This document shows, one piece after another, positions 3,874-19,017 of a DNA stretch of 44,182 nucleotides. Position numbers and translations under genes: made by a program. The DNA comes from Synergistaceae bacterium (GTDB lineage Bacteria; Synergistota; Synergistia; Synergistales; Aminobacteriaceae). Numbering within the stretch: the first letter of the stretch is position 1; each line of letters opens with the position of its first letter. The stretch lies in assembly GCA_031272145.1 (NCBI GenBank), contig JAISUL010000068.1:1-44182 (forward strand), written 5' to 3'. The notes under the pieces were generated by a model, which searched no databases, had not been told where the DNA came from, and saw only the letters and a program-made list of their open reading frames with translations.

Positions 3874-3917
3874 AAAGATACGTGAAAAATTCGTAATAAT
3901 AATATGGAGATGGGTTG

Positions 3918-6098
3918 ATGGATTTCCCGAACCTGAACCTAAACCGGCTGAGCGTGAGGATGAAGCTGGCTTTGAGTTTCGCGGCTGTTGGGGTGCTGAA
4001 CGTCTGCCTCGGCCTGTACGCCGTCTTCGGTGCAGGGGAGGTGAAGGTCGTGGCCGCCCTCGTCTGCGCCGGATGCCTGCTCTCTCTTTGCGCGGCTCGG
4101 TACATATCGCGCGGCATCAAGAGGTCGATCGACGAGCTCCTCCGAGTCTCCGGCCTAGTCAGCGACGGCAGGCTGGAGAACTCGGCGAGGGTGAGGATAC
4201 TGTCGCACGACGAGCTCGGCAGCCTGGCGCGGCAGTACAACTTCATGTTCGACAGGATAAACGCCCTCGTGAGCGCGCTTCGCGAGCGTAGCGCCGAGGC
4301 CGAGCGCGCCGTCCGCGCCAAGGGCGTTTTCCTTGCGACCATGAGCCACGAGATTCGCACCCCTATGAACGTCATCATCGGCATGAGCGATATTCTCGCC
4401 AGCGCCGACAACCTCGACGCGACGCAGAAGGGCTACCTCCGCGACATCCGCCGCATGGGCAAATCCCTCCTGCAGATGATAAACGACATCCTTGACTTCT
4501 CCAAAATAGACATGGACAGGATCGAGATAGTCAGCGCGAGCTACGACTTCAGGGACCTGTTTGAGAGCGTGTGCTCGCAGAGCGGGTTCTTGGCCACGTC
4601 GAAGGGGCTGAAGTTCGTGCACTCCGTCGACGCGGCGCTGCCCAGGATGCTCTTCGGCGACGAGCTCCGCGTCCGGCAGGTTCTGACCAACGTGATCAGC
4701 AACGCCGTGAAGTACACGAGGGACGGCCTCGTGTCCGTGAACGTCGGGCTCAGGGGGTGCCGTGGCGGGGCTGGCTTCGGCGTGACGGTCTCGGACACGG
4801 GGGTCGGCATAAGGCCGAGCGACATGCCGCTGCTGTTCCGTCCGTTTCAGCAGTTCGACCGCGAGATGAACAAGGGCATAGTGGGCACTGGGCTTGGCCT
4901 CGCCATATCGCGCCGGCTGGTCGACATGATGGGCGGGGAGATACTGGTGGAGAGCGAGTACGGCGTCGGCTCGGTCTTCACGATCGTGCTGCCCTTGGCC
5001 GAGGGGGACGCGCCGGCCAGCGTCGGGGAGGTGGTCGCGAGCGCGGACGCGAACGTCCTCGTCGTCGACGACAGCGCCGAGAACCTCACGGTCGCGCAGG
5101 GCTGCCTCGGCAGGCACGGCGTGACTCCCGACACGGCGTCGAGCGGCGCCGAGGCCATAGCGATGATGGCCGCGAAGAAGTACGACCTCGTCTTTATGGA
5201 CCACATGATGCCCGACATGGACGGCATCGAGGCCGCGCGGCGCATAAGGGCTTCCGGCGACAGGACGCCGATAATAGCGCTCTCGGCCAACGCCGTCGCC
5301 GGCATGGAGGACTTCTTCCTGAGGTCCGGTCTGGACGGCTTCCTTGCCAAGCCAATCGACGACGTCCGGCTGAACGAGCTGCTGGCGAAGTGGCTCCCGC
5401 CGGCAAAGTACACGACGCGGCGAAATGCGCCAGGGAAAGGTGGCGCAGTTAAGGACGATGCGACCGCGAACCTGCTCTCCAGCCTTCGCGGCGTGCCGGG
5501 CCTTGACGTCGACCTCGGCATGGAGTACTCCGGCGGCGACGCGGCGATATACGTGGCTGTCCTCAGGCAGATGTACGGAAAAGTCGACGCCGACCTCTCC
5601 AAGCTGGAGAAGCTGGAGCAAAGTCTTGCGGACGGCGACATAGCCGAGTACGCCGTGAAGGTGCACGCGATGAAGGGCGTGTTTGCAAACATAGGGGCAG
5701 AAGCCCTCGCCAGCTCGGCGTCCAAGCTGGAGGCGATGGCCAAGCACGCCGCCGGCCTCTTGTCGGACACCCCGCCCTTCGTCGAGGCCGTGAAGAACTT
5801 CAAAACCCTGCTCAGCGCCACGGCAATAGGAACAGTAAAAGAGCAGGAGCAGGAGCAGGAGCAGGAGCAAAACTCCAACACCTTGGCGCGGGTGCTGAAC
5901 GCCCTGAGGGACGCCTGCGCCCTGTGCAAGGGGAACGAGGCCAACGCGTGGGCTGCGCGCCTCAGGAGGCAGGCTGGCGGGGTGAAGGACGCAGCGGTTC
6001 ACGCCCGCCTCTTGGAGCTGGCCGAGCTGGCCGAGGCCTACGAGTACGACGCGGCAGCCGAAAAAGCGGACGGATTAATTTCCGATCTCGCTATGTGA
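3918..6098 (+). CDS. Hybrid sensor histidine kinase with receiver and Hpt domains
   Basis: A 726-residue membrane kinase. Two transmembrane helices (about residues 16-38 and 44-60) leave almost no periplasmic sensor. Then come a HAMP-like linker, HisKA with phospho-acceptor H144 in SHEIRTP, HATPase_c with NVISNAVKYT, VSDTGVGI and GTGLGLAIS, a receiver with D428 in FMDHMMPD, and an Hpt domain with H583 in VHAMKG. After a ten-residue EQ repeat (642-651) comes a 75-residue helical module, which resembles the C-terminus of the response regulator encoded next. The ATG at 3918 follows GGAG at 3906-3909; a TTG one codon earlier is less likely. The signal is unknown. The layout allows a full phosphorelay from H144 through D428 and H583 to the neighbouring regulator. 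Confidence 0.9.
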   Translation: MDFPNLNLNRLSVRMKLALSFAAVGVLNVCLGLYAVFGAGEVKVVAALVCAGCLLSLCAARYISRGIKRSIDELLRVSGLVSDGRLENSARVRILSHDELGSLARQYNFMFDRINALVSALRERSAEAERAVRAKGVFLATMSHEIRTPMNVIIGMSDILASADNLDATQKGYLRDIRRMGKSLLQMINDILDFSKIDMDRIEIVSASYDFRDLFESVCSQSGFLATSKGLKFVHSVDAALPRMLFGDELRVRQVLTNVISNAVKYTRDGLVSVNVGLRGCRGGAGFGVTVSDTGVGIRPSDMPLLFRPFQQFDREMNKGIVGTGLGLAISRRLVDMMGGEILVESEYGVGSVFTIVLPLAEGDAPASVGEVVASADANVLVVDDSAENLTVAQGCLGRHGVTPDTASSGAEAIAMMAAKKYDLVFMDHMMPDMDGIEAARRIRASGDRTPIIALSANAVAGMEDFFLRSGLDGFLAKPIDDVRLNELLAKWLPPAKYTTRRNAPGKGGAVKDDATANLLSSLRGVPGLDVDLGMEYSGGDAAIYVAVLRQMYGKVDADLSKLEKLEQSLADGDIAEYAVKVHAMKGVFANIGAEALASSASKLEAMAKHAAGLLSDTPPFVEAVKNFKTLLSATAIGTVKEQEQEQEQEQNSNTLARVLNALRDACALCKGNEANAWAARLRRQAGGVKDAAVHARLLELAELAEAYEYDAAAEKADGLISDLAM
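5841..5870. repeat. GAGCAG hexanucleotide repeat in the kinase gene
   Basis: Four GAGCAG units and one GAGCAA unit encode EQ five times in the linker between the Hpt domain and the C-terminal helical module. Because the unit is six bases, changes in copy number would lengthen or shorten the linker without shifting the frame. Confidence 0.9.
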
Positions 6099-6131
6099 CG
6101 TGATATTATACGAGCGGGAGGAGGTTAGAGC

Positions 6132-6920
6132 ATGTCGGACGAAAACATTGAATACGTAAGAAAGGTCATTCTCGCCGTGGACGACGAGGCCACGAACCTC
6201 ACGCGCATCAACATGATCCTCGGGGACGAGTTCGACGTCCGCCTCAGCAACTCGGTGCAAAAGGGCCTGTTCATGCTCACTCAGGTCAGGTTCGACCTGA
6301 TCCTGCTGGATATAGAGATGCCTGGCAAAAACGGCTTCGACTTTCTGGAGTCCATGAGGACGTCCTACGCGGCCTACAGCGCGCCTGTGATAATCGTGAC
6401 CGCCATGGCGACGCCGGCTCTGATAGCGAACGTGGCCAAGCTTGGCGTGACGAACTTCGTCGTGAAGCCCTTCGCGCCCGCCACTCTGAGGGAGCGGGTC
6501 TACGCGATGATAGGCCGCGGCGTTGCCACCCCCATCGTGCGTCTAGACGCCCCCCAAAGAGGCGGAGCAGCGTCAAGGGGCGAGGGCGTTTCGCGGGGTG
6601 AGAGCGTTAGGGTCGAGGGCGTTTCGATGAGCGGGCCCGCCGCGACGGGGACGGGGGAAGCACGGAGGGGCAGCAGGGGCGATTCTGCGAGGGAGGAGGA
6701 CTACGAGCCGCTGATCGAGCGCCTTGAGTTTCTGGAGGGCGCGTGTCTTTTCTCCAACAAGGAGGAGGCGGAGGCGGCTTTGTCCGACGTGAGGGACATG
6801 GCCGAGAGCAACCCGCTGCTTCGGAGGGTCGTAAACGGTGTGTCGTCGCTGGTTGCCGCCGGAGACTTCCCGGGCGCCGTCGACAAGATAGCCGCGCTGA
6901 CGTCCGTGCTTAAAACGTAA
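6132..6920 (+). CDS. Response regulator with C-terminal helical module
   Basis: A 262-residue protein. Residues 10-130 form a receiver domain with acidic pair D17-D18, phospho-acceptor D60 in LLDIEMPG, a Thr in VTAMA and the Lys in VVKPF. A Gly/Arg/Ser-rich linker (about 140-195) leads to a helical C-domain (about 197-262) with no DNA-binding or enzymatic motif I recognise. That domain resembles the end of the upstream kinase: both have L-x-x-AC, an Asn-x-x-Glu-Ala block and a final A-x-x-K-x-x-x-L-x-S-x-L-type helix. The RBS is GGGAGGAGG at 6116-6124. Gene order makes it the probable partner of the kinase. The output probably works through protein contacts; the target is unknown. Confidence 0.85.
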   Translation: MSDENIEYVRKVILAVDDEATNLTRINMILGDEFDVRLSNSVQKGLFMLTQVRFDLILLDIEMPGKNGFDFLESMRTSYAAYSAPVIIVTAMATPALIANVAKLGVTNFVVKPFAPATLRERVYAMIGRGVATPIVRLDAPQRGGAASRGEGVSRGESVRVEGVSMSGPAATGTGEARRGSRGDSAREEDYEPLIERLEFLEGACLFSNKEEAEAALSDVRDMAESNPLLRRVVNGVSSLVAAGDFPGAVDKIAALTSVLKT

Positions 6921-6942: not shown

Positions 6943-6991
6943 GGAGAGTAATAAAACAGCGCCTATTACTTATTACTTATTACTCCTCTCC
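6943..6991. repeat. Inverted repeat with TTATTAC repeats between convergent genes
   Basis: GGAGAGTAATAA (6943-6954) can pair with TTATTACTCCTCTCC (6977-6991), with a small bulge. The loop holds a tandem 7-bp repeat (ATTACTT). It lies between the response regulator (plus) and the end of the flagellar operon (minus), so a two-way terminator is plausible. There is no clear T-run, and the right arm runs into the last codons of the minus-strand gene. Confidence 0.35.
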
Positions 6992-7528
6992 TATTGACGC
7001 CAGGGCTTTTTGCATTCTTCCGAAGGGCTCTACCAGCTCCATCGTCTTGGCGGCATCCACGAGTGTGGCCGCTGTTTGGCGCACCTCGTCCTCACGCGTG
7101 TTCGGGGCGAACTCGGCTCGGAGCGGGGCGCTCACGGCGTCGACCTGGACGGCGTACACCACGCCGCTTTCGCCTGTGCTCTCGACGCTGCCGACCGCGT
7201 CCATCGGGGCTCGGTTCGTCATGGACAGGCACAGCACCTTCCCTCTGGACAGGTTCTTCAGCGGCGCGACCAGGTCGGAGTCGCGGCATATCCAAACGGG
7301 CGGCTTGACCTCCACCGCGCGCACAAGGCTGTCGAGCACGAGCTCCTCGCGCAGGTAGACCTCCATAGCGCTGCCGTAGAGGATTTTCTCCAGCCGCGTC
7401 GGCCTGATCGGGTCGGTGTACCGAAAGTCCAGCGGAATGCCGCGGAAGTCCACCACCAGCGAAGCCCCGCGAAAAAGCCCCTCCGCGCCCTCGACGACTA
7501 TATAGCCCAAACTGTTTGACGCCGCCAA
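6980..7528 (-). CDS. Uncharacterised protein at the end of the flagellar operon
   Basis: A 182-residue protein I cannot assign to a named family. It has a mixed alpha/beta pattern with no signal peptide or membrane helix. The segment GIPLDFRYTDPIRPTRLEKI (about residues 30-49) has the dense Pro/Arg/aromatic character of a conserved core. A later part, SRGKVLCLSMTNR, looks like a buried strand. The TTG start at 7528 follows GGGGGG (7540-7535 on the minus strand). It is the last gene of the operon, behind fapA and a small charged protein, which suggests a role tied to motility or to FapA; this is inferred from position only. Confidence 0.6.
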   Translation of the reverse strand: MAASNSLGYIVVEGAEGLFRGASLVVDFRGIPLDFRYTDPIRPTRLEKILYGSAMEVYLREELVLDSLVRAVEVKPPVWICRDSDLVAPLKNLSRGKVLCLSMTNRAPMDAVGSVESTGESGVVYAVQVDAVSAPLRAEFAPNTREDEVRQTAATLVDAAKTMELVEPFGRMQKALASIGEE

Positions 7529-7575
7529 AAATATCCCCCCTTACTCCGCGCCCCTGCGCCTTACTACTCTCACCC

Positions 7576-7902
7576 CTAGGCGTAGAACTCGACGCCGCCA
7601 GCCTGAGGCAGCTTAGGCGCCTCGGTTTGATCGCCTCCGCCGGCCAGGGGGTGCTTCTGCCCTTCCTTGCTGTTCCGGCGCTGTTTTTCCTCGCCTTTTT
7701 CCTCGCCTTCCTCGCGGCGCTTGATCTTGTTTGCCGCCGCTGCGGCTAATCCGGCCTCCACGCGCTGGGCGCGGCGGATGCTCTCCTCCGCGATGGTCTG
7801 GCCCTGCCCCGTCTGCTGCGCGGCGGCCAGCGCGTCCCTCGAGGTCTGTGCTGTGTGCTCAACGCTTAAGTGCGAAAGCTGAAGATTCACAGGCTGAAGC
7901 AT
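7576..7902 (-). CDS. Small charged protein, function unknown
   Basis: A 108-residue protein. The first half (MLQPVNLQLSHLSVEHTAQT onward) is helical and Gln/Ala-rich. From about residue 58 it becomes a run of Lys, Arg and Glu typical of a disordered or coiled segment, and it ends in a Gly/Pro tail. The ATG at 7902 lies 12 bases after the fapA stop and has its own GGAGG. Small charged proteins of this kind occur in flagellar operons between larger genes, but I cannot name this one. It could be an export-related or adaptor protein; no catalytic motif is visible. Confidence 0.6.
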   Translation of the reverse strand: MLQPVNLQLSHLSVEHTAQTSRDALAAAQQTGQGQTIAEESIRRAQRVEAGLAAAAANKIKRREEGEEKGEEKQRRNSKEGQKHPLAGGGDQTEAPKLPQAGGVEFYA

Positions 7903-7914
7903 GACGTTTCCTCC

Positions 7915-9615
7915 TTAAAAGTCGTAAGACCTCACCTTGACGTCTCCGTCCTCGAAGACGAAAGCGGCGTACTTGAACGGCTCGCGCACCACGTAGTTCA
8001 CGCCTCGGATGTTGATGCTGACGCCGGGGTAGCATACGCCCTTGACCTTCACCACTCCGCTTGCCTTCGCCAGGTCCAGGCGGTCGTCGATGTCGTTCAG
8101 CTCGGCCTTCATGGGTCCCATCGCCGCCTGTATCTTGAACTTCGCCTGAGTCAGCTTGGCCATCAGGATGCGCTTGTCGTCGTCGAGCTTGCCGGCCTCG
8201 TCCAGCTTCTTCAGGTACTCGATGTTGGAGTCGGCCTTGACCAGCTCCGCCCTGTTCTCGGCTATCAGGTTCTGAAGCTCCTTGCGGCGCTCGGCCTGTT
8301 CCGGTGGCAGTCCGACCACGACCTCGGTCTTCGTGCCCATCTCGCTTCCGAGGGTTTGGCACATCACTGCCCTTCCGGCCTGAATCTTGCCGCCAGCGAT
8401 CTGAGACCTTTGGCCGCCGGACACGACGACGTTTTCCTCCGCCATGACGTCGCTGTGCAGTATTGCGTTCTTGACGCTGATGCTGCCGCGGCTTCGGATG
8501 GATGCCTGATCGACAAAGCCCATTTTTATCGAGCCGTTGGCGGTGATGAGCGCCTTACCTGTCCCGCGCACGCCGCCTCTGACTATGATGTTCCCCTTGC
8601 TCTCGACTCTGGCTCCCTCGACCACCTCGTATATCTCCACGTCCCCGCTGGCGATGACCACGAAGCCCTCGCGCACCGAGCCCCTTATCTTGACTGTGCC
8701 TTGGAAGTCGATGTTGCCGACGCCGAAGTCGACGTCTCCGTGCACATCAAGCTCTGGCAGCACGACCAGCTTGTTGTCCTTCTTGGAGAGGCGCCCGTCG
8801 ATGGAGGCGATGAGGGTGAGCCCGTCCTCCGAGAGCTCCAGCCCGCTGCCTATCGGGAAGGGCACGTCCTTGCCCGGCACCGGTGGTATCTCCACGCCTA
8901 TGATGGACTTGCCGCTGGTGCCTGGCGTGGCTGGGGTTTTCACCGCCACCTTGTCGCCTTTGGACACGAGCACGAAGGAGCTCCTCGACCTGTGGTCGAC
9001 GACGTCCGCCTCCTCGTCTACCTCGGGTGGCTTGTCGGGGTCGACGAGAAGCTCGATTTTGGCGTGCTCGCCGTTCACGGGCGGCAGTCCCCTGGCCACG
9101 ACCACGGAGTCCCCCGCCAGCTTCAGCTTGAGCACCTCGTCGATGGCGTCCTCGTCTATGCCGAAGACGACGTTCTTGAAGTCCAGAGCCGCCTTGATGT
9201 CCTTCTTGGTCGGCCATGGCTTCTCGAAAAACGGCGGGTCAATGGCCAGCGTGACGGAGAGGTTGTCCTTGGCAAGCTGGGTCGATATGACCGCGTCCTT
9301 TTCGTTGGCGGCGTTGCGCTCCGCTATCCGCTGCGGCGTGTGGATCCTGTTTCTTACGATCTCCTCGACCGCTTTCTCGTTGTACTTGCGGACGCCGTTG
9401 GCGAACAGAAAGCGCGCAACCGCAGGCAGCGTGATCTCCGCGGCCTGCAGTGTCAGGTACACCCCGCTAGAATCGGCGCTGAGCTTCAGCGGCTGCGTCG
9501 GCTGCTGGTCAGACTGCGTCTGTTCATCAGACTGCTGTCCGCTTACCTGCCAACTTTCACTTTCCTGCTGGGCGCTTGCGGCGCTGTCGGCTGTTTTTAA
9601 CGCTTCCTCAGGCAT
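7915..9615 (-). CDS. fapA: FapA/DUF342 family polymer-like beta-helix protein
   Basis: A 566-residue FapA (DUF342) family member. The N-terminus (1-45) is Gln/Ser-rich and disordered. A FapA_N region follows, then a long run of short beta strands rich in Gly, Val and Asp (about 270-440, for example GDVDFGVGNIDFQGTVKIRG), consistent with a right-handed beta-helix. A coiled coil of about 60 residues (AERRKELQNLIAENRAELV) interrupts it before a final beta segment. DUF342 proteins are often encoded in flagellar or chemotaxis operons; their biochemical role is unsettled. The ATG at 9615 follows AAAGGAGA; an upstream in-frame GTG covers that RBS. It sits directly behind fliA. Confidence 0.85.
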   Translation of the reverse strand: MPEEALKTADSAASAQQESESWQVSGQQSDEQTQSDQQPTQPLKLSADSSGVYLTLQAAEITLPAVARFLFANGVRKYNEKAVEEIVRNRIHTPQRIAERNAANEKDAVISTQLAKDNLSVTLAIDPPFFEKPWPTKKDIKAALDFKNVVFGIDEDAIDEVLKLKLAGDSVVVARGLPPVNGEHAKIELLVDPDKPPEVDEEADVVDHRSRSSFVLVSKGDKVAVKTPATPGTSGKSIIGVEIPPVPGKDVPFPIGSGLELSEDGLTLIASIDGRLSKKDNKLVVLPELDVHGDVDFGVGNIDFQGTVKIRGSVREGFVVIASGDVEIYEVVEGARVESKGNIIVRGGVRGTGKALITANGSIKMGFVDQASIRSRGSISVKNAILHSDVMAEENVVVSGGQRSQIAGGKIQAGRAVMCQTLGSEMGTKTEVVVGLPPEQAERRKELQNLIAENRAELVKADSNIEYLKKLDEAGKLDDDKRILMAKLTQAKFKIQAAMGPMKAELNDIDDRLDLAKASGVVKVKGVCYPGVSINIRGVNYVVREPFKYAAFVFEDGDVKVRSYDF

Positions 9616-9629
9616 GGTCACATCTCCTT

Positions 9630-10388
9630 TCACGTCGCTATCAAGGCTTTGAGAGCGGCTATGGCTTTCCCGTGAATCTGGGAAACCCGCGATTCGGTGA
9701 CATCCAATATCCGCCCAATCTCTTTCAGTGTGAGTCCTTCGTAGTAGTAGAAAGAAATGACCTGCCTCTCCCGTTCGGGCAGTCGGGAAAGGGCGTCCGC
9801 TATGGACGCGATCTCGTCCTGAAGCTCCAGGGCCGTTACGGTGCCGTCGGATTCGTCGGCTATCACGCCGTCCAGTGCGACGTCGCCGTCGCCTAGCGCC
9901 ACGACCTCGTCGAGCGATATGACGCAGTTCCTGCTGACCAGGTCCAGCGCCTCTCTGTACGTCTTGTCGTCGACGCCCATCTCTCGCATGACGTCGTCGT
10001 CCGTTATGCTGCCCTTGTCGCGGAGCACCTTCTCTATGGCTTTGTTCAGCCTTTGCAGCTTCTCACGTCCGGTTCTGGAGACCCAGTCGTATTTGCGCAG
10101 CTCGTCCAGGATGGCGCCCCTTATGCGCGGGACGGCGAAGGTCTGGAACGAGAAGCCCTTCGACATGTCAAACCGCTCCACGGCGTCAATCAGGCCGAAC
10201 ACCCCGAAGCTCAGCAAGTCCTCGTAGTCGAGGCCGGACGGGGCCGAGACTGGCATCCTCCCCAGCACGTACTTGACGAGGGGCAGATATCTGCCGATGA
10301 TCTTCTCCTTGGCCTCCGCGCACGGGTTGTCGGAGTACTCGCGCCAAAGCGCGGCGTCCAGAGCCCGTCCCTCGTCAGAGTCCGTCAT
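9630..10388 (-). CDS. fliA: Flagellar sigma factor (sigma-28 / SigD / WhiG family)
   Basis: This 252-residue sigma factor directs transcription of late flagellar and chemotaxis genes. Region 2 is seen in YLPLVKYVLGRM, GLDYEDLLSFGVFGLIDAVERFD and FQTFAVPRIRGAILDELRKYDW. Region 3 follows, and region 4 with its helix-turn-helix is RERQVISFYYYEGLTLKEIG followed by TESRVSQIH. Length and motifs match SigD/FliA closely. It is preceded by cheD (13-base gap) and followed by fapA. The usual chromosomal partner FlgM is not in the window. Confidence 0.93.
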   Translation of the reverse strand: MTDSDEGRALDAALWREYSDNPCAEAKEKIIGRYLPLVKYVLGRMPVSAPSGLDYEDLLSFGVFGLIDAVERFDMSKGFSFQTFAVPRIRGAILDELRKYDWVSRTGREKLQRLNKAIEKVLRDKGSITDDDVMREMGVDDKTYREALDLVSRNCVISLDEVVALGDGDVALDGVIADESDGTVTALELQDEIASIADALSRLPERERQVISFYYYEGLTLKEIGRILDVTESRVSQIHGKAIAALKALIAT

Positions 10389-10401
10389 TATCCCGCACCG
10401 T

Positions 10402-10914
10402 CTATATCTCGCTCGTGCCTCTGCCGAGCGTCTTGATGGTCAGCATCCATGTGTTAGTGCAGAACTCCACCGTCCTGCCCTTGTTGCCGCCCGTGTCCGA
10501 GGCCAGCAGTGCTATGCCGAAGTGCGATAGCATCCGCGTGGTCTCCTTCACGTTGCGGGCGCCGACCGCCAAAAAGTCGCTTCCGGCCCCGGTGCCGGGC
10601 ATCGCAAACATCTGGGCGCCGCCGGCCAGCTTCGCCTTCATGCGGAGCTTCTCCGCGCCCTTCTGCAGCATCTCGCTCACCAGGGCCGGCACAGCGGTGT
10701 CGGCGAACTTCCCGAGCTTCTCGACCTTCGCCCCGCGGCTCTCCGGCAGCATGATGTGGGCCATCCCCGCGACCTTGGCGACGGTGTCGTAAATGACCAG
10801 CCCTATGCACGAACCGAGCCCAAGGGTTATGAGCGTGGCCGGCGCGTTGGCCACCACGAGGTCCGCCATGCCCACGTGATACACGGTTCCACCCCCACCA
10901 GCGCCGCCGCTCAT
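10402..10914 (-). CDS. cheD: Chemoreceptor glutamine deamidase CheD
   Basis: CheD deamidates glutamines on methyl-accepting chemotaxis proteins and binds CheC, which it stimulates as a CheY-P phosphatase. The 170-residue product shows the catalytic Cys36 in LGLGSCIGLVIYD and His53 in GMAHIMLP, and the conserved block GGNKGRTVEF near the end. The start codon shares one base with the cheC stop (TAATG), so the two partners are translationally coupled. Confidence 0.95.
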   Translation of the reverse strand: MSGGAGGGGTVYHVGMADLVVANAPATLITLGLGSCIGLVIYDTVAKVAGMAHIMLPESRGAKVEKLGKFADTAVPALVSEMLQKGAEKLRMKAKLAGGAQMFAMPGTGAGSDFLAVGARNVKETTRMLSHFGIALLASDTGGNKGRTVEFCTNTWMLTIKTLGRGTSEI

Positions 10915-11561
10915 TAAAGCACCTTCAACTTTCCAAGGAGCAGCTCCAGCGCGTCCGGGTCGGGCAGCATGATTATGTTGCTGGATATGCCCCCGCCTTT
11001 CGCGCCTCCCTTGACGTTGTCCACGCGGAGCTCCGCGTCTATTATCAGCGCCATCTCCCCCATTTGGCCGAACATCGACGCCACCACGTCGAGGATGGAC
11101 GCCAGCATGTCGCGCGCAACGCCCGGAACCGAGTTCTCGTGCTTATGAGTGCCTATCATCATGTTGACCGCGTTGAGGAAGGAGCTGATCATGATGTTCC
11201 CCACCTCAGATATGGCGCTGTCGTAGACCTCCTCGGGCATCGAACTGGGGATCGCCCCCCCAAACTGCTGCCTGAGGAGCAGGTCCACCAGAAGCGCCGC
11301 GTCCTCCTCTTTTTGTATAAAGATCACGCTGCACCCAAACTCGCCTGACGAGCGCATAAAAACCGCCGCGACGATCGCGTCCGGGTTGCCGTAGTACTCC
11401 GAGAGCGAGTACACGGAGACCAGCGCGACCTCGGGGACGGCCATGCGAATCGTGCACGACAGCATGTCGGAAAGGGCTGTGGCCGCGCAGCCCGTCCCTA
11501 TGTTGCCCACCTCTCGTATGGCGTCGAGCTGCAGAGTGTTAAACGAGCCAAGGTCAAGCAT
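10914..11561 (-). CDS. cheC: CheY-P phosphatase CheC
   Basis: CheC removes phosphate from CheY-P and acts with CheD in receptor adaptation. The 215-residue protein has both phosphatase helices with the E-x-x-N signature: REVGNIGTG (E17, N20) and SEVGNIMIS (E119, N122). Two intact centres fit a CheC-type enzyme rather than CheX. It follows cheA after 6 bases and overlaps cheD. With cheB and cheD present but no cheR or cheW here, the rest of the adaptation system must lie elsewhere. Confidence 0.95.
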   Translation of the reverse strand: MLDLGSFNTLQLDAIREVGNIGTGCAATALSDMLSCTIRMAVPEVALVSVYSLSEYYGNPDAIVAAVFMRSSGEFGCSVIFIQKEEDAALLVDLLLRQQFGGAIPSSMPEEVYDSAISEVGNIMISSFLNAVNMMIGTHKHENSVPGVARDMLASILDVVASMFGQMGEMALIIDAELRVDNVKGGAKGGGISSNIIMLPDPDALELLLGKLKVL

Positions 11562-11567
11562 GGCAGG

Positions 11568-13592
11568 TCATTTCATGGAGTACAGAGAGGCCACGTCGAG
11601 TATCAGGGCGACGTTGCCGTCCCCCAGTATCGTGGCGCCCGCTATGCCCTTGATCTTGGAGAGGAAGCGCCCAAGGGACTTGATGACGATCTCCTGCTGG
11701 CCTATCAGCTCGTCCACTATGAAGCCGATCCTGCTCTTGCCTATCTTGACCACCACGACCGGGTACTCCTCCCGTTTGGACTCCTCAACGACTGTGCCGA
11801 GCACGTCGCCGAGGTCGCTCAGGGAGAGCACCTCGCCGCGCAGCAGCGTCGCCGGCGCGCCGTGGACGGTCTTGATGTTCTCCCGCTTGACCAGTATGGT
11901 CTCCTCGACGTTCTCGAGCGATATGGCGTAGGTCTCGTCGCCGACCTTTATCAGAAGCGAAAGCACTATCGCCAAGGTCAAGGGAAGCCTGACGTATATG
12001 CTGGTCCCCTGGCCGACCTTGGACACTATGTCAAGCTGCCCGCCGAGGCCCTCCACCTTGGTCTTCACGGCGTCCATGCCCACGCCTCGCCCGGAGATGT
12101 CGGTTATCTTGTCGGCAAGGCTGAAGCCAGGCAGCATAACTATCTGGATGGCCTCCTCGTCGGACATCGACGCCGCCTCCTCGTCTGAGATGATGCCGCG
12201 CTCCACGGCCTTCTTCTTGACCTTGTCCGGGTCTATGCCCTTGCCGTCGTCCGACACCTCGATGATGACGCCGCTGCCCTCCTGGTAGGCGGATATCTTG
12301 AGCACGCCCTTCTCTGGCTTGCCAGCGGCGCGGCGCACCTCAGGCGTCTCGATGCCGTGGTCCAGGGAGTTGCGGATCAGGTGCACCATCGGGTCGCCTA
12401 TCTCGTCTATGACCGTGCGGTCGAGCTCCGTTTCCTGCCCCTCCAGAACGAGCTCCACGTCCTTGCCGAGGTTCTTCGACATGTCGCGTATGAGCCTAGG
12501 AAAGCGGTCGAACGTGAAGGACACCGGCACCATGCGCAGCTTGGACACGAGCTCCTGAATGTCGCCCGATATGCGCCCCAGCTGGGACAGAGGCTCGTCG
12601 AAGTTCCTCAGCCTAGCCTCCTGCACAAGCCGCTCCACGCGCGCCCGCCCTATCACGAGCTCGCCGACCAGGCTCATCAGCTTGTCCAGACGCCCTATGT
12701 CGACGCGAACCGTCTGGCTGACCTTCTTTGCCGACTCCGTCTTTGTCACAGCGCCACCGGCCGGGGCCACTGCCGCTGGCTGCTTTGGCTGCTGCTGCAC
12801 CGGCGCCGCCTCAGGCTCCGCCTGAACGGCCTGCACCGCTGGCTCCGGCGCCTTGATCTCCGCCACTGTTATCGACGCCACGTCGGTTATCTTGAGGATA
12901 GTGTCCCTGACCTCGTCCGCCGCCTTGTCCGTGCTCATATAGACCAGGAAGTCGAGGTCGAACCGCTCGTTTTCGAGGTCCTCCACGGAAGGGTCTGTCT
13001 TGGCGACCTCGCCGAGCTCCTCGAGCCTGTTCACCACCATGTAGGCTCGGGCGGCCTTCAGCAGGCAGGCGTCGCTGAGCTTCACGGTGATCTCGTAAGG
13101 CGTCATGCCGATCTCTCTTGTGGCCGCCGCCCACGCCACGGTGTCCCTGGACAGCTCGGCCACCGAGGCCGGAGCAGCGGCAGCAGCCGAAGCAGCCGGC
13201 GCAGCCGCGACCACGTTGCGCAGCGCGGAGATGAGCCCCGACACGTCGATGTGCGACTCGTCGCCGCCCGCGCGTATTGCGTCGACCATCGCCTGCATCG
13301 TGTCGAGGGAGTTGAACATAAGGTTCATGTCGGAATCGTCAAGGTGATGAGTACCCTTGCGAGCCGCGTCCAGACGGTCCTCCAGAGCGTGGGTCAGACC
13401 GGCCATCTTCTCGAATCCCATCGTCGCCGACATGCCCTTCAGCGTGTGGGCGGCGCGGAATATCTCGTTTATGGTGTCCATGTCCGTCGTGTCTTTTTCC
13501 AACGCTAGCAGGAGGTCGTCCAACCTTTGAAGGTTGTCCCCGGCCTCGTCCAAAAAGGCGCCGAGATACTGATTCATATCCATGTCACTCAT
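11568..13592 (-). CDS. cheA: Chemotaxis histidine kinase CheA
   Basis: A 674-residue CheA with all five domains. P1 carries phospho-acceptor His49 in FRAAHTLKG. After an Ala-rich linker, P2 (about 155-250, YEITVKLSDACLLKAARAY) is the docking domain for CheY/CheB. A second Pro/Gln/Ala linker leads to the P3 dimerisation helices (RLDKLMSLVGELVIGRARV), the P4 ATPase (HLIRNSLDHGIE, DDGKGID, GRGVGMDAV) and the P5 CheW-like domain at the C-terminus. It phosphorylates CheY and CheB in response to receptor state. The 42-base gap before it holds a run of nine T. No cheW or cheY is in the window. Confidence 0.96.
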   Translation of the reverse strand: MSDMDMNQYLGAFLDEAGDNLQRLDDLLLALEKDTTDMDTINEIFRAAHTLKGMSATMGFEKMAGLTHALEDRLDAARKGTHHLDDSDMNLMFNSLDTMQAMVDAIRAGGDESHIDVSGLISALRNVVAAAPAASAAAAAPASVAELSRDTVAWAAATREIGMTPYEITVKLSDACLLKAARAYMVVNRLEELGEVAKTDPSVEDLENERFDLDFLVYMSTDKAADEVRDTILKITDVASITVAEIKAPEPAVQAVQAEPEAAPVQQQPKQPAAVAPAGGAVTKTESAKKVSQTVRVDIGRLDKLMSLVGELVIGRARVERLVQEARLRNFDEPLSQLGRISGDIQELVSKLRMVPVSFTFDRFPRLIRDMSKNLGKDVELVLEGQETELDRTVIDEIGDPMVHLIRNSLDHGIETPEVRRAAGKPEKGVLKISAYQEGSGVIIEVSDDGKGIDPDKVKKKAVERGIISDEEAASMSDEEAIQIVMLPGFSLADKITDISGRGVGMDAVKTKVEGLGGQLDIVSKVGQGTSIYVRLPLTLAIVLSLLIKVGDETYAISLENVEETILVKRENIKTVHGAPATLLRGEVLSLSDLGDVLGTVVEESKREEYPVVVVKIGKSRIGFIVDELIGQQEIVIKSLGRFLSKIKGIAGATILGDGNVALILDVASLYSMK

Positions 13593-13634
13593 GGCACACC
13601 ATCCCCAAATTTTTTTTTATTGATCCGCGTCCGG

Positions 13635-14681
13635 TCAGGAACGGACTCCCAGCACCCTCAGGAGGGCGTCGGGGATGCTCCAGAGCGGAAGCAAAGCGTC
13701 CGCGGCTCCGGCCTCGACCGTCGCCTTGGACATGCCGTAGACCACGCAGGTTTCCTGCGACTCCGCTATAATATACGCCCCTTTGTCGTGAAGCGCCACG
13801 GCGCCTTCTGCCCCGTCGCGCCCCATGCCAGTCAAGACGACGCCAACCGCGCGACCGCCGAACTCCTCGGCCACGCTGTGAAACATTATATTCGCGGCCG
13901 GCTTGACAGACAATACCGGCGGCGCGTCGGAAAGCCCGCAGCGAAACACGCCCGGCAGGGTACGCCTAACCACCATATGGCTGCCGCCCGGCGCCACCAC
14001 CGCCACCCCAGCCCTGAGCGGAGTCCCCTCCTCGCCCTCGATGACCTTCAGGGCCGACGCCGCGTCGAGGCGCTTGGCGAAGGCCCCCGTGAAGTCCTTC
14101 GACATGTGCTGCGTGATGACTATCGGCACCGGGAAGCGCGCCGGCAGCTTCGACAGGAGCTCCTTGAGCGCGGCTGGGCCTCCCGTGGACGCCGCTATCG
14201 CCACTATCTCGCGGCGCTGCGTCCTCGCAGCCTGTGGCGCCGCAGGCTGCGGCACCTGAGGAACCGCCTGAGGCGCTGGGCTCCCGCCGGCCACCTTCGC
14301 GGTCAGCTCCGCCGCGAACTCACGCCCAAAGGCCGACGCCAGCCCGTCGGACTTCGACCTGTACATGAAGTCAAACACCCCAGGGTGCATGGCCTTGAGT
14401 GCCGCGGCCTCGTCCTTCTTGGGCAGGTCGCACAACGCCACGACCGTGATGGGCATAGCAGGACGAAGCCTGACGAGCTCCTCGAGGGCAGCCGCCCCGT
14501 CCTGCATCTCCATGTCGAACACGACCACCTGCGGCGCCGCGGCATTGACCTTCGCCGCCAAGCCTGCACCGTCCCTGGCCGTCCCCACGACCTCTACGCG
14601 CGGATCCGACGACAGAACGTCGCTCAGCAGCTTCCGCATTACGGCCGAGTCATCCGCTATAAATACCCTGATTTCACTCAT
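13635..14681 (-). CDS. cheB: Protein-glutamate methylesterase CheB with unusual receiver domain
   Basis: CheB removes methyl groups from chemoreceptors. The C-terminal methylesterase domain is intact, with the catalytic triad S165 (AASTGG), H192 (TQHMS) and D289 (GMGRDG). The 348-residue protein begins with a receiver domain that keeps D10-D11 and phospho-acceptor D56, but the switch residues differ from the norm: the Ser/Thr position is A82, the invariant Lys is R108 (FMYRS instead of FVTKP), and the MPxMDG loop is shortened to MQDG. Its control by phosphorylation may therefore be altered. An Ala/Pro/Gln linker joins the two domains. Confidence 0.93.
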   Translation of the reverse strand: MSEIRVFIADDSAVMRKLLSDVLSSDPRVEVVGTARDGAGLAAKVNAAAPQVVVFDMEMQDGAAALEELVRLRPAMPITVVALCDLPKKDEAAALKAMHPGVFDFMYRSKSDGLASAFGREFAAELTAKVAGGSPAPQAVPQVPQPAAPQAARTQRREIVAIAASTGGPAALKELLSKLPARFPVPIVITQHMSKDFTGAFAKRLDAASALKVIEGEEGTPLRAGVAVVAPGGSHMVVRRTLPGVFRCGLSDAPPVLSVKPAANIMFHSVAEEFGGRAVGVVLTGMGRDGAEGAVALHDKGAYIIAESQETCVVYGMSKATVEAGAADALLPLWSIPDALLRVLGVRS

Positions 14682-14714
14682 AAAATCTCCACAAACGAAA
14701 ACGGAACAGAGCTG

Positions 14715-15410
14715 TTACCTGTTCGTAAACTCCTGTTTACGAATGAAATCCGTCATCAGTTTCTCAGTAAACGCCGAGATGCCGCTGTTGAACGCCACGC
14801 CCATCTCGACGGATTTCACGTTTCTCTCAAACATCTTGACCAGCTTGCCCACGAGAAAGAAGCTCGCCTCTCCCACGTAGAGGAGCAGCAGATAGCGGCC
14901 GCCGATTATGCAGTAGCTCCCGACGCTCTTGTTTATGCTGGCGCCTATGCCGCCGAGGCTCATGTCCGTCACGTGAATGGGAAACCACTCGCGCTCCGGG
15001 TAAATAGTGCGAGCATCCGCAGCCGGGCCGTCGTAGTCCAGGTAGAAGCACCTAGCGTCGACGGAGCACGGAACTCGGACGAACATCCTCCTCTGTATCC
15101 TCTCGAGGACGCTCGCGAACCTGACCCACATGAGCGGCACTGTATCGCCCATCGACAGGCGCGACACCATGACCGCCGCCTCGTAGAAGCAGCCCGACCC
15201 CTCTATCCTCATGGTCATGTCCATGCCAGCGTGAACTGGGACGAACCTGCCCTTCTCGGCGAGGCGCGCAACTGCCACCTCGTCGTCCCCGATCGCCTCG
15301 AGCCTGGTGGAGTAGCTCCCGGCGTTGGCGCCCCTGTCCGAGCTCAGAGTGACCTTCGCGCCTACGAGCCCCGAAAGCAGCCTGCGCGTCTGATCAAACG
15401 GCGAACTCAT
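14715..15410 (-). CDS. PilZ-domain flagellar protein (YcgR/YpfA-like c-di-GMP receptor)
   Basis: A 231-residue protein with the two-domain layout of flagellar brake proteins: an N-terminal YcgR-type beta domain (about 1-100) and a C-terminal PilZ domain. Both c-di-GMP-binding motifs are present: RRMFVR (R108 and R112) and DMSLGG (D149, S151, G154). Proteins of this family slow or bias the flagellar motor when c-di-GMP is high. The start overlaps the flhF stop as ATGA. It takes the position where flhG usually follows flhF. Confidence 0.88.
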   Translation of the reverse strand: MSSPFDQTRRLLSGLVGAKVTLSSDRGANAGSYSTRLEAIGDDEVAVARLAEKGRFVPVHAGMDMTMRIEGSGCFYEAAVMVSRLSMGDTVPLMWVRFASVLERIQRRMFVRVPCSVDARCFYLDYDGPAADARTIYPEREWFPIHVTDMSLGGIGASINKSVGSYCIIGGRYLLLLYVGEASFFLVGKLVKMFERNVKSVEMGVAFNSGISAFTEKLMTDFIRKQEFTNR

Positions 15411-16903
15411 GTCGTCACCTCTTCGCCGCTGCCTGCGCGGCTCCGACGATCGATCGGCCTCACGTTTCCGTCCCGCGCCAGCATCGCTGCAAACGCGGCA
15501 CCTGAGGCGACCTCCAAGTCGTTCGGCACGTTCTGCCCCGCCGTCATGAAGGACACAGGACGATCCAGCGACTTCGCAGCGTTGAAAATAGCGCCGCAGC
15601 TCACCGTCTCGTCGAGCTTGGTGAAAATCACGTGGGATATAGGCGCGCCCGACATGCGATCGATGAAGCTCCTCATATCCCTGTACTTCATGTTCGCGGG
15701 CAGCACCAAATGCACGGCGTCAGGCCTGAACACGCGGCACAGGGCGTCCCAGTCGTTCGCGTTCTTGCGGTCGTTTTGTCCGTGCCCTGCCGTGTCCATC
15801 AGGATCAAGTCCGCTTGTCCGTGCCTGTCCAAAATATTCCGCAGGCCGTCGACCTCGAAGACCACCTCGATCGGCACTCCGAGTATCTTAGCATAGGTTC
15901 TCAGCTGGTCGGCGGCCGCTATTCTGTAGGTATCGCTCGTTAGGAGGAGGACGTTCCTGTGCTCCCAAAGGGCCTGGATCGCGGCCAGCTTGGCGACGGT
16001 CGTGGTCTTGCCAGCCCCTGTAGGGCCTAGCAGCATCACCTTGCGCCCGCCGAGCGCGCCGGTCACGTCCTTCGCGGCGCAGCGTATCCGAGGCGCCAGC
16101 CAGCCCTCGAACCCGCTTTTGTAGTCCGCTGAGCCGACCGCGGCGCTCACGGCGCGGTAGCCGCTGACCAGCTCCCTCGCGTACTCCGGCTCGACGTCCT
16201 CCGCCAAAAGTGCCTTGTATATCTCGTCTCCCTCAAGGCCGGAGCCGGCGGAGCCAACTGAGACAGCGGCAGCGGAGAACGCAGGGACGGCAGGCCCTGA
16301 CGCAGTGAATGACGTCCTGCCCAGCACGGAGTCGACGCGGCGCGCTAGGTCGGCCACCTCATCCCTTATCTGGGCTGCCTCCGTGCTGTACTGGGCGGTT
16401 GGCGGCAGCGCCCTTGTCCCTGCTGCCATGCCCTCGGAGGAGATCGAGACGACGTCGGGCGCAGCCTGGCCTGGGCTCGCTCCCTTGTGAGGGCCGGAGG
16501 AGTAAATTACCTTCGCCGGACGAACGCCGTTAGCGGCAGAAGCAGGAGTAGGGGTAGAAGTAAGGCGGGGGCTTGGCTCGCGCTGGCCCGCGTCGCCGGG
16601 GCTTTCCCCTGTGCTGTTGCGCATCTCGGCGGCCTGCTTTATGTCCAGCATCCGCTGAAAGGCCAGCAGGCGCTCCTTGGTGGCAGAGTCGTCCTCCTTG
16701 TCCCTAGACTTAATGGGGTAGTCGTCCTCTAAGATGCCAGCCGTGACCAGAAGGACGTTCTTTTTGAACATGCCCATGATGCCGCCTACGCCCACTATGC
16801 GCGTGGAGAGGATCACCGCGTCCTTGCCCAGACGCTCGCCGGCCAGCCTCAGGGCTTCCGCGTCGTCCTTAGCCTCGAAAGTAATCTGGTTGATCACCCT
16901 CAT
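15407..16903 (-). CDS. flhF: Flagellar biosynthesis GTPase FlhF
   Basis: FlhF is an SRP-type GTPase that sets the place and number of flagella. The 498-residue protein has the basic N-domain (MRVINQITFEAKDDAEAL), a long low-complexity linker rich in Ser, Pro, Thr and Ala, and the NG domain with P-loop GPTGAGKTT (K299), TSDTYRIAAADQL, the DTAGHGQND loop and FTKLDET. The ATG at 16903 has GGAG six bases upstream; a GTG at 16909, overlapping the flhA stop, is the alternative. FlhG, its usual ATPase regulator, is not downstream. Confidence 0.94.
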   Translation of the reverse strand: MRVINQITFEAKDDAEALRLAGERLGKDAVILSTRIVGVGGIMGMFKKNVLLVTAGILEDDYPIKSRDKEDDSATKERLLAFQRMLDIKQAAEMRNSTGESPGDAGQREPSPRLTSTPTPASAANGVRPAKVIYSSGPHKGASPGQAAPDVVSISSEGMAAGTRALPPTAQYSTEAAQIRDEVADLARRVDSVLGRTSFTASGPAVPAFSAAAVSVGSAGSGLEGDEIYKALLAEDVEPEYARELVSGYRAVSAAVGSADYKSGFEGWLAPRIRCAAKDVTGALGGRKVMLLGPTGAGKTTTVAKLAAIQALWEHRNVLLLTSDTYRIAAADQLRTYAKILGVPIEVVFEVDGLRNILDRHGQADLILMDTAGHGQNDRKNANDWDALCRVFRPDAVHLVLPANMKYRDMRSFIDRMSGAPISHVIFTKLDETVSCGAIFNAAKSLDRPVSFMTAGQNVPNDLEVASGAAFAAMLARDGNVRPIDRRSRAGSGEEVTT

Positions 16904-16905
16904 GG

Positions 16906-19017
16906 TCACTCCACCATTCCAACGGTTTTGATCTGCATCCCGTGAGCTATTTCATTGTAGGATACCACAAAAATATTTGGAATAGACCCCTCTATGAGAC
17001 GTCGAACGACGAGCCGGACGTTCGGGTGCACCAGCAGGGCCGGGGTGACGTTCTTCAGCACCATATCCTCGGAGGCGCGGGCTATGGCGGAGATCATCTT
17101 GCGCACCTCGCGGGAGTCGAGGTTGAGGTGCCATCCCCTCGCCAGGTCGCCCTCCATGGACGCCATTATCTTCTGCTCCCAGTTCGGCGAGAGGGTCGCG
17201 ACCGTGATCACGCCGTCGGGCCCCTGGAGCTTCAGCGATATTATGCGGGCCAGGGACTCCCTCGCCCTCTCCGTCAGGAAGTCCACGTTGCGGGACGTCT
17301 TGCCGTTGTCCGCTAGGGACTCGAAGATCGTCACGAGGTCCCTTATCGGTATCTGCTCCCTGATCAGGTTCTGCAGCACCTTCTGAATCTCCCCTAGGGA
17401 CAGTGTGGACATGAGCTCCTCGACCACGGCAGGGGAGTTCTCCTTCACCATGTCGGTGAGCTTCTGAACCTCCTGGCGGCTCAGGAGCTCCGCTCCGTTC
17501 TTCTTTATGACCTCAGAGAGGTGCGTCGCCAGCACGGACGGGGCGTCGACGACGGTGTAGCCCATCGACTCGGCCTTGTCCCGAAGGTCCGGCGAGATCC
17601 ATATGGCCGACAGGCCGAACGCTGGCTCCTTCGTCGGAACGCCCACGATCTCCTCCTCGGCGGCCCCGGTGTTCATGGCCAGGTAGTGGTCTGGCAGAAG
17701 CTCGCCTCGCCCCGCCTCAGTTCCCTTTATCCTCAGGATGTACTCGGTGGGCTTGATCTGGATGTTGTCCCGTATGCGTATCGGAGGCACGACTATGCCG
17801 AGCTCGATGGCCAGCTGCTTTCGGATAGTCCCGATGCGCTCCAGCATGTCGCCGCCCTGCGACGGGTCGACCAGGGGGATTATCGCGTAGCCTATCTCGG
17901 CCTCCATGGGCTCGACCGTCAGCAGGCGCATGACGTCCTCCGGCGTGGCAGGGGTTGGGGCCTCGGCTGCCGTGCGCGGCGCCCCCGGCGGGGTTCTTCC
18001 CGTCCCCGGCGCCGGCGCCGGCCCCGCTGCGCCTGCGGCCTCGGCCTCGGCCGCCGCTCCCTCGCGCATGACGGCGTAGCCCATGAAGCCGAGCATCGCG
18101 CCCAGAGTCATGAACGGTATCATCGGAAGCCCCGGCACGATGGCGAGCGCGAAGAGCAGGCCCGCCCCGATGTAGAGGGGACGCGGGTACTTGGTGAACG
18201 CCGCGACGATGTCCTGACCGAGGTCGGACGTGGCGGCTGCGCGCGAGACTATGATGCCGGTGGCAGTCGAGAACAGCAGGGCAGGTATCTGCGACACCAG
18301 CCCGTCGCCGACAGTGAGCAGGCTGTAGAGCGACGCAGCCCGTCCCACCGGCATGCCGCGCTGGAAGACCCCTATGGCCAGGCCCCCTATTATGTTGATG
18401 AACGTTATCAGCAGCCCCGCCACGGCGTCGCCCTTGACGAACTTCGACGCTCCGTCCATGGCCCCGTAGAAGTCGGCCTCGCGCTGAATGTCCCTGCGGC
18501 GCTCCTTGGCCCCGTTTTCGTCTATAAGGCCGGAGTTCAGGTCGGCGTCGATGGCCATCTGCTTGCCGGGCATCGCGTCGAGGGTGAACCGCGCCGCGAC
18601 CTCCGCGACTCGCTCGGCGCCCCGCGTGATGACCACGAGCTGGATGACCACGAGGATCAGGAATATGACCGCCCCGACGACGTAGTTCCCTCCGACGACG
18701 AACGTCCCGAACGCCGTGATTATGCTGCCGGCGTTGCCCTGCAGCAGGATCTGCCGCGTCGTCGAGACGTTGAGGGCTATTCTGAACAGGGTGACGATGA
18801 GCAGCAGCGTCGGAAACACAGACAGATCCAGCGCCCGCTTCACGTAGAACGTGACGAGCAGAACCACCACGCCGAGCGTTATGTTGCAGGCGAGGAGGAT
18901 GTCTATCATCCAGGTCGGCAGCGGGATGATCATCATGCCGACCACGAGCACCATCAGCAGAGCTACTCCGATGTCGGAGAAGTGCAGTATCTTCTTGAGA
19001 ATGGAGGTCGTCTCCAT
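16906..19017 (-). CDS. flhA: Flagellar type III export gate protein FlhA
   Basis: FlhA is the export-gate component that docks chaperone-substrate complexes. The 703-residue protein has about eight transmembrane helices in the first 330 residues, with the FHIPEP-family block VTLFRIALNVSTTRQILL and the cytoplasmic loop GKQMAIDADLNSGLIDE that carries conserved Asp residues. An Ala/Pro linker (about 335-375) leads to the large cytosolic domain. The ATG at 19017 gives the normal start METTSILKK. It is the first gene of the eleven-gene operon ending at 6980; flhB is not in the window. Confidence 0.97.
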   Translation of the reverse strand: METTSILKKILHFSDIGVALLMVLVVGMMIIPLPTWMIDILLACNITLGVVVLLVTFYVKRALDLSVFPTLLLIVTLFRIALNVSTTRQILLQGNAGSIITAFGTFVVGGNYVVGAVIFLILVVIQLVVITRGAERVAEVAARFTLDAMPGKQMAIDADLNSGLIDENGAKERRRDIQREADFYGAMDGASKFVKGDAVAGLLITFINIIGGLAIGVFQRGMPVGRAASLYSLLTVGDGLVSQIPALLFSTATGIIVSRAAATSDLGQDIVAAFTKYPRPLYIGAGLLFALAIVPGLPMIPFMTLGAMLGFMGYAVMREGAAAEAEAAGAAGPAPAPGTGRTPPGAPRTAAEAPTPATPEDVMRLLTVEPMEAEIGYAIIPLVDPSQGGDMLERIGTIRKQLAIELGIVVPPIRIRDNIQIKPTEYILRIKGTEAGRGELLPDHYLAMNTGAAEEEIVGVPTKEPAFGLSAIWISPDLRDKAESMGYTVVDAPSVLATHLSEVIKKNGAELLSRQEVQKLTDMVKENSPAVVEELMSTLSLGEIQKVLQNLIREQIPIRDLVTIFESLADNGKTSRNVDFLTERARESLARIISLKLQGPDGVITVATLSPNWEQKIMASMEGDLARGWHLNLDSREVRKMISAIARASEDMVLKNVTPALLVHPNVRLVVRRLIEGSIPNIFVVSYNEIAHGMQIKTVGMVE

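Follow-up and report, generated by a model that had tools for sequence, protein, structure and literature searches.

A helical companion module of Hpt domains at the end of a hybrid histidine kinase, and its probable copy on the response regulator encoded beside it, in a Synergistaceae bacterium

Background

The choice of the correct response regulator by a histidine kinase is usually explained by the surface of the receiver alone. The P2 docking domain of CheA, an alpha/beta fold, binds the receiver itself, and engineered kinase-regulator scaffolds (such as leucine-zipper tethers) direct the phosphotransfer by means of matching interaction parts placed on the two proteins. In PhyR, a sigma-like domain mimics a sigma factor. 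The tripartite hybrid kinases, such as TorS, BarA, ArcB and EvgS, show the order HAMP-HisKA-HATPase-REC-Hpt, which is also that of the kinase described here. This kinase is encoded directly ahead of a response regulator in a stretch of 44,182 nucleotides of Synergistaceae DNA, the window of our analysis. The original prediction held that the two proteins appear to end in the same helical module and that this module could pair them or bind a common target, giving a specificity beyond the receiver. We find that the first part of this proposal very probably stands, and that the module is better understood as a general companion of Hpt domains.

Architecture of the kinase-regulator pair

The features of the two genes, with the evidence for each, are:

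3915-6098, + strand: hybrid histidine kinase, 727 aa, with HAMP, HisKA, HATPase, REC and Hpt domains followed by the (EQ)5 linker and the helical module (open reading frame; Pfam for the five domains)
5604-5798, + strand: Hpt domain (PF01627) with the phospho-acceptor histidine motif HAMK (Pfam E 5e-8)
5841-5870, + strand: EQEQEQEQEQ linker from Hpt to tail (sequence; simple DNA repeat)
5871-6095, + strand: kinase tail, the Hpt-companion helical module, 75 aa (iterated HMM, genome-wide profile E 8e-15, AF2 model)
6132-6920, + strand: response regulator, 262 aa, with REC, linker and module (open reading frame; Pfam REC only)
6168-6500, + strand: receiver (REC) domain with the DD, D, T and K residues intact (Pfam E 8e-21; translation)
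6501-6692, + strand: Ser/Gly/Arg-rich linker, about 64 residues (sequence; codon-position GC)
6693-6917, + strand: regulator tail, very probably a diverged copy of the module, with four predicted helices (profiles in both directions, hhalign, AF2, codon-position GC)

The original prediction had placed the kinase, the (EQ)5 repeat, the 75-residue tail and the regulator correctly. The kinase contains the three steps of a phosphorelay (HisKA to REC to Hpt): as in the tripartite hybrid kinases, the HisKA histidine (MSHEIRTPMN), the HATPase, the REC aspartate (MDHMMP) and the Hpt histidine (VHAMKG) all lie in a single chain, as seen from Pfam and the translation. A separate cognate receiver protein is encoded next door, an arrangement kept in three related loci (L201, L202 and L203). 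The phospho-acceptor histidine is almost invariant across Hpt alignments, and the predicted model of the kinase Hpt is similar to solved Hpt domains. Behind it, AF2 predicts a confident bundle of four helices for the tail, none of whose 75 residues is matched by a Pfam model, while the EQ linker is the low-confidence part of the kinase model. This linker is encoded by a (GAGCAG)n repeat, slippage in which may change its length.

Across the whole regulator, Pfam detects no DNA-binding domain, as had been claimed, and no enzyme domain; its tail goes unrecognised by Pfam, and no trace of an Hpt is found by Pfam in its linker. With 262 aa and a tail, it falls outside the single-domain response regulators, which consist of the receiver only (about 120-150 aa). 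GC content by codon position is flat over the linker (0.69/0.72/0.72), which is likely to be disordered, and coding-like over the tail (0.67/0.40/0.83). For the regulator tail, AF2 likewise gives a confident four-helix bundle (pLDDT 93.5, pTM 0.82), but the kinase-tail alignment given as input biases the fold, so that this model is supporting and not independent evidence.

The pair adjoins a flagellar/chemotaxis cluster on the opposite strand (window 6980-19017) that codes for FapA, a sigma factor, CheD, CheC, CheA, CheB, FlhF and FlhA. The part from FlhA to the sigma factor occurs in the same order in another Synergistaceae MAG (L080), which fits an origin of the window in this family. Between the regulator and FapA lies a gene for a 182-aa protein (6980-7528, - strand) without a match in Pfam or NCBIfam.

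Probable homology of the two tails

A direct BLASTP comparison of the two tails yields no match (E 1.9), which speaks for convergence, a reading in which the regulator tail is a four-helix bundle of separate descent and its hairpin pattern (LxxLxxA....D...A...L) resembles the module by chance. Profiles give a different picture. HMMs seeded with three kinase tails and iterated without the regulator (Z=10000) match the regulator C-terminus over nearly the full model, with a sequence E-value of 6.6e-5 in iteration 1 and E-values of 0.0015-0.0095 in the others, and hhalign aligns the regulator tail with 41 kinase tails over 70 columns (E 1.5e-6, probability 90). When the 2.05 Mb genome is scanned with the 41-row kinase-tail profile, just two places emerge at E<=10. 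These are the kinase tail itself (E 7.9e-15) and the regulator tail (E 0.008), the latter in register from position 3 to 77 of the 79 in the profile and at the very C-terminus of the protein. In the reverse direction, a phmmer search with the regulator tail against 8807 reading frames returns kinase tails as the top non-self matches (best E 0.0073).

The shuffle controls depend on the profile used. Against the broad 41-row profile, on which the real score is 16.7 bits, none of 20,000 plain shuffles reaches this score but 2 of 20,000 shuffles preserving the hydrophobic pattern do; against the closer 13-row profile, none of 60,000 reaches the real 26.4 bits, the top shuffle scoring 20.9. Designed helical proteins in the PDB likewise attain E 0.003 against the module profile, but most of these matches span only some of its length. 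The near full-length register, the uniqueness of the match in the genome, the reverse search and the closer profile together make convergence improbable, and we regard the two tails as very probably homologous. Some doubt remains because helical hairpins converge easily.

The original prediction made its case depend on a significant profile match between the tails, and such a match is found even though the tails have diverged too far for BLASTP. The motifs that it had singled out (L-x-x-AC, E/N-A and A-x-x-K) are real, but they are common to only a part of the module family.

The module as a companion of Hpt domains

The module is an unnamed Hpt-companion domain, general across several phyla rather than peculiar to this pair. 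It stands behind an Hpt in 112 of 115 distinct copies, usually at a spacing of 8-15 residues, in a sample that is biased in that many of its loci were fetched with an Hpt-plus-tail query; searches with the module only agree with the association. The three copies with no Hpt ahead are two bare fragments and the regulator of the window; one of the fragments, L006, was inspected and runs off the end of its sequence piece. Conversely, the profile finds the module on 112 of 131 Hpt matches, and in many of the remaining 19 its pattern can be recognized by eye, making its presence on Hpt proteins within this sample close to universal. A sample of 48 other genomes contains 29 module matches, all 29 behind an Hpt, in seven genomes that belong to Synergistaceae, Eubacterium, Ruminococcus, Lachnospiraceae/Lachnoclostridium, Halanaerobacter and Acanthopleuribacter. 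Overall, the module is spread over Synergistaceae, Bacillota and an Acanthopleuribacter. With this count and this spread, it does not single out the pair described here. Both tails of the pair match the kinase-tail profile over its length; that of the kinase lies directly behind an Hpt, and that of the regulator has no Hpt before it.

The module is not bound to the end of a protein. One protein (L215) has the order Hpt-module-REC, with the module away from the C-terminus, and stand-alone Hpt proteins with the module are encoded at L146 in genome G074 and L189 in genome G080. Hence, the module is tied to the Hpt and not to the C-terminus. The protein at L189 (2224-3027, + strand) starts with a hydrophobic stretch and is possibly a membrane-anchored Hpt, and the one at L146 (1906-2853, - strand) directly follows a receiver gene, the relay being split across proteins in that genome. 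A further set of Hpt kinases (L131, L133, L135 and L142) lacks the module and ends in a short conserved motif, DDEILEFFPE(T/A).

Neither Pfam nor NCBIfam holds a model for the module, solved structures offer no convincing match to it, and our literature searches found no description of it. The domain lists seen in a survey of HK, RR and HPt proteins name those domains only, and such a module is not mentioned in them (PMC4558063). We also considered that the tail might be a dead Hpt, given a weak likeness to the four-helix fold of this domain, and rejected this on profile comparison: the hhalign probability of a relationship to Hpt is 1.1 for the module and 2.5 for the regulator tail. In the alignment of 41 tails, no column shows a shared histidine of the kind that the HxxK motif would provide; the most frequent histidine occurs in 7 of the 41 rows.

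A single regulator with a probable copy of the module

Among the copies collected, a receiver followed by a linker and a module without an Hpt occurs in one genome only. At L201, L202 and L203, the gene directly after that of an orthologous kinase (44-48% identity where the sequences match) codes for a receiver protein with 47-52% REC identity to the regulator of the window, and all three of these regulators stop within a few residues of the receiver. Across 188 genomes of the phylum, mostly drafts, the 21 closest regulators among the matches listed match over the receiver only and all appear to be without the tail; they are open frames of about 140-185 aa, against 262 aa here. Each of the other short frames with the module that we inspected either has an Hpt or is truncated where its contig stops. 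As the 21 closest regulators listed appear to lack the module, phosphotransfer in the family does not need it. In a tree, the branch of the regulator tail is very long (3.54) and stands apart from the tail of its own kinase. A recent copy of the latter is rejected as its source, on account of this long and unresolved branch away from it. Taken as a whole, the system is a phosphorelay of the standard kind to which an unnamed companion domain of Hpt is added, plus one regulator that very probably captured such a module.

These observations bear on the interpretation that had been attached to the shared module. The sharing itself holds up, but a role in pairing and specificity is conjectural: the module is a general Hpt companion, the closest regulators that accompany orthologous kinases appear to lack it, and the copy on the regulator is not grouped with that of its kinase. 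Moreover, the genome codes for 14 REC domains and a single kinase with the module, so that there would be little cross-talk to prevent.

Possible roles of the regulator copy

The simplest idea, given that the module travels with the Hpt, is that its job lies at the Hpt end of the relay. We tentatively infer that the regulator borrowed an Hpt-companion bundle which would tether it to the Hpt end of the kinase, a reading to which we give somewhat less than even chances. In the ordinary members, the module may dock the end of the relay by keeping the Hpt region of the kinase positioned, either packing on the Hpt or pairing the two kinase subunits; alternatively, it may dock the incoming receiver. 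The copy on the regulator would then take part in this contact, with either the tail or the Hpt of the kinase as its partner, and the long, probably flexible linker would let it hold the receiver beside the phosphorylated Hpt histidine, with phosphotransfer being faster and better insulated in consequence. With 14 REC domains and one module kinase, the benefit is more likely to be speed or local concentration than the avoidance of look-alike kinases. We count in favor of the tether the homology of the tails, the link of the module to Hpt, the conserved kinase-regulator pair, the confinement of the two copies in this genome to one gene pair, and the confident four-helix model; against it stand the lack of the module in the closest regulators listed and the long branch of the regulator tail apart from that of the kinase. 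The stronger version, in which the acquired bundle pairs with that of the kinase and places specificity outside the receiver, and in which such bundles behind Hpt domains would more widely give bacterial phosphorelays a general site of docking for their last step, appears doubtful.

An equally doubtful alternative is that the tail serves the regulator itself, either as a dimerisation bundle or by capping the receiver of the same protein, and does not touch the kinase, having been picked up from some Hpt protein by a fusion in which the Hpt was lost. The long and flexible linker and the strong divergence of the tail from that of its kinase would fit this, and proteins of REC-Hpt-module order, from which an Hpt could be lost, do exist. 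Yet Pfam sees no remnant of such a domain in the linker, and the near-constant company of module and Hpt argues for a role at that end of the relay.

Slightly less likely still is a shared third target, or mimicry, in which both tails bind another protein, for example a partner in sensing, a factor at the membrane or the cell pole, or an effector of the regulator. The regulator copy would then recruit this target or compete for it, in the manner of PhyR. The tail may supply the output for which the regulator has no domain of its own, and a module that is widespread and not pair-specific would be compatible with such a role. However, no conserved third gene lies beside the pair in the relatives examined, and the flagellar/chemotaxis genes that adjoin the pair in the window are unmatched in the other kinase-regulator loci. 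The tether remains the reading that we prefer.

Comparison with known systems

The best NCBIfam matches of the kinase are TorS, BarA and ArcB, all far below the curated cut-offs, and it differs from these and from EvgS by the extra 75-residue helical module after the Hpt, which lies outside the profiles of those families. With the Hpt domain (PF01627) itself the module shares a four-helix bundle—the Hpt of Escherichia coli YojN/RcsD is a weak Foldseek match (TM 0.77 by query, E 0.93)—but it has neither the conserved histidine nor a profile match to Hpt. Like the P2 domain of CheA, it forms a domain of its own close to the Hpt, from where it could capture a receiver; unlike P2, it is all-helical and is present on both proteins. 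Being nearly constant with Hpt in Synergistaceae and some Bacillota, and found once on a regulator, it offers a place to test for a docking part at the end of the relay. The engineered leucine-zipper tethers are artificial, whereas the present arrangement is natural and its tail-to-tail binding hypothetical. If such binding holds, the pair would be a natural counterpart of the engineered scaffolds, with the specificity of phosphotransfer residing in a matched module beyond the receiver.
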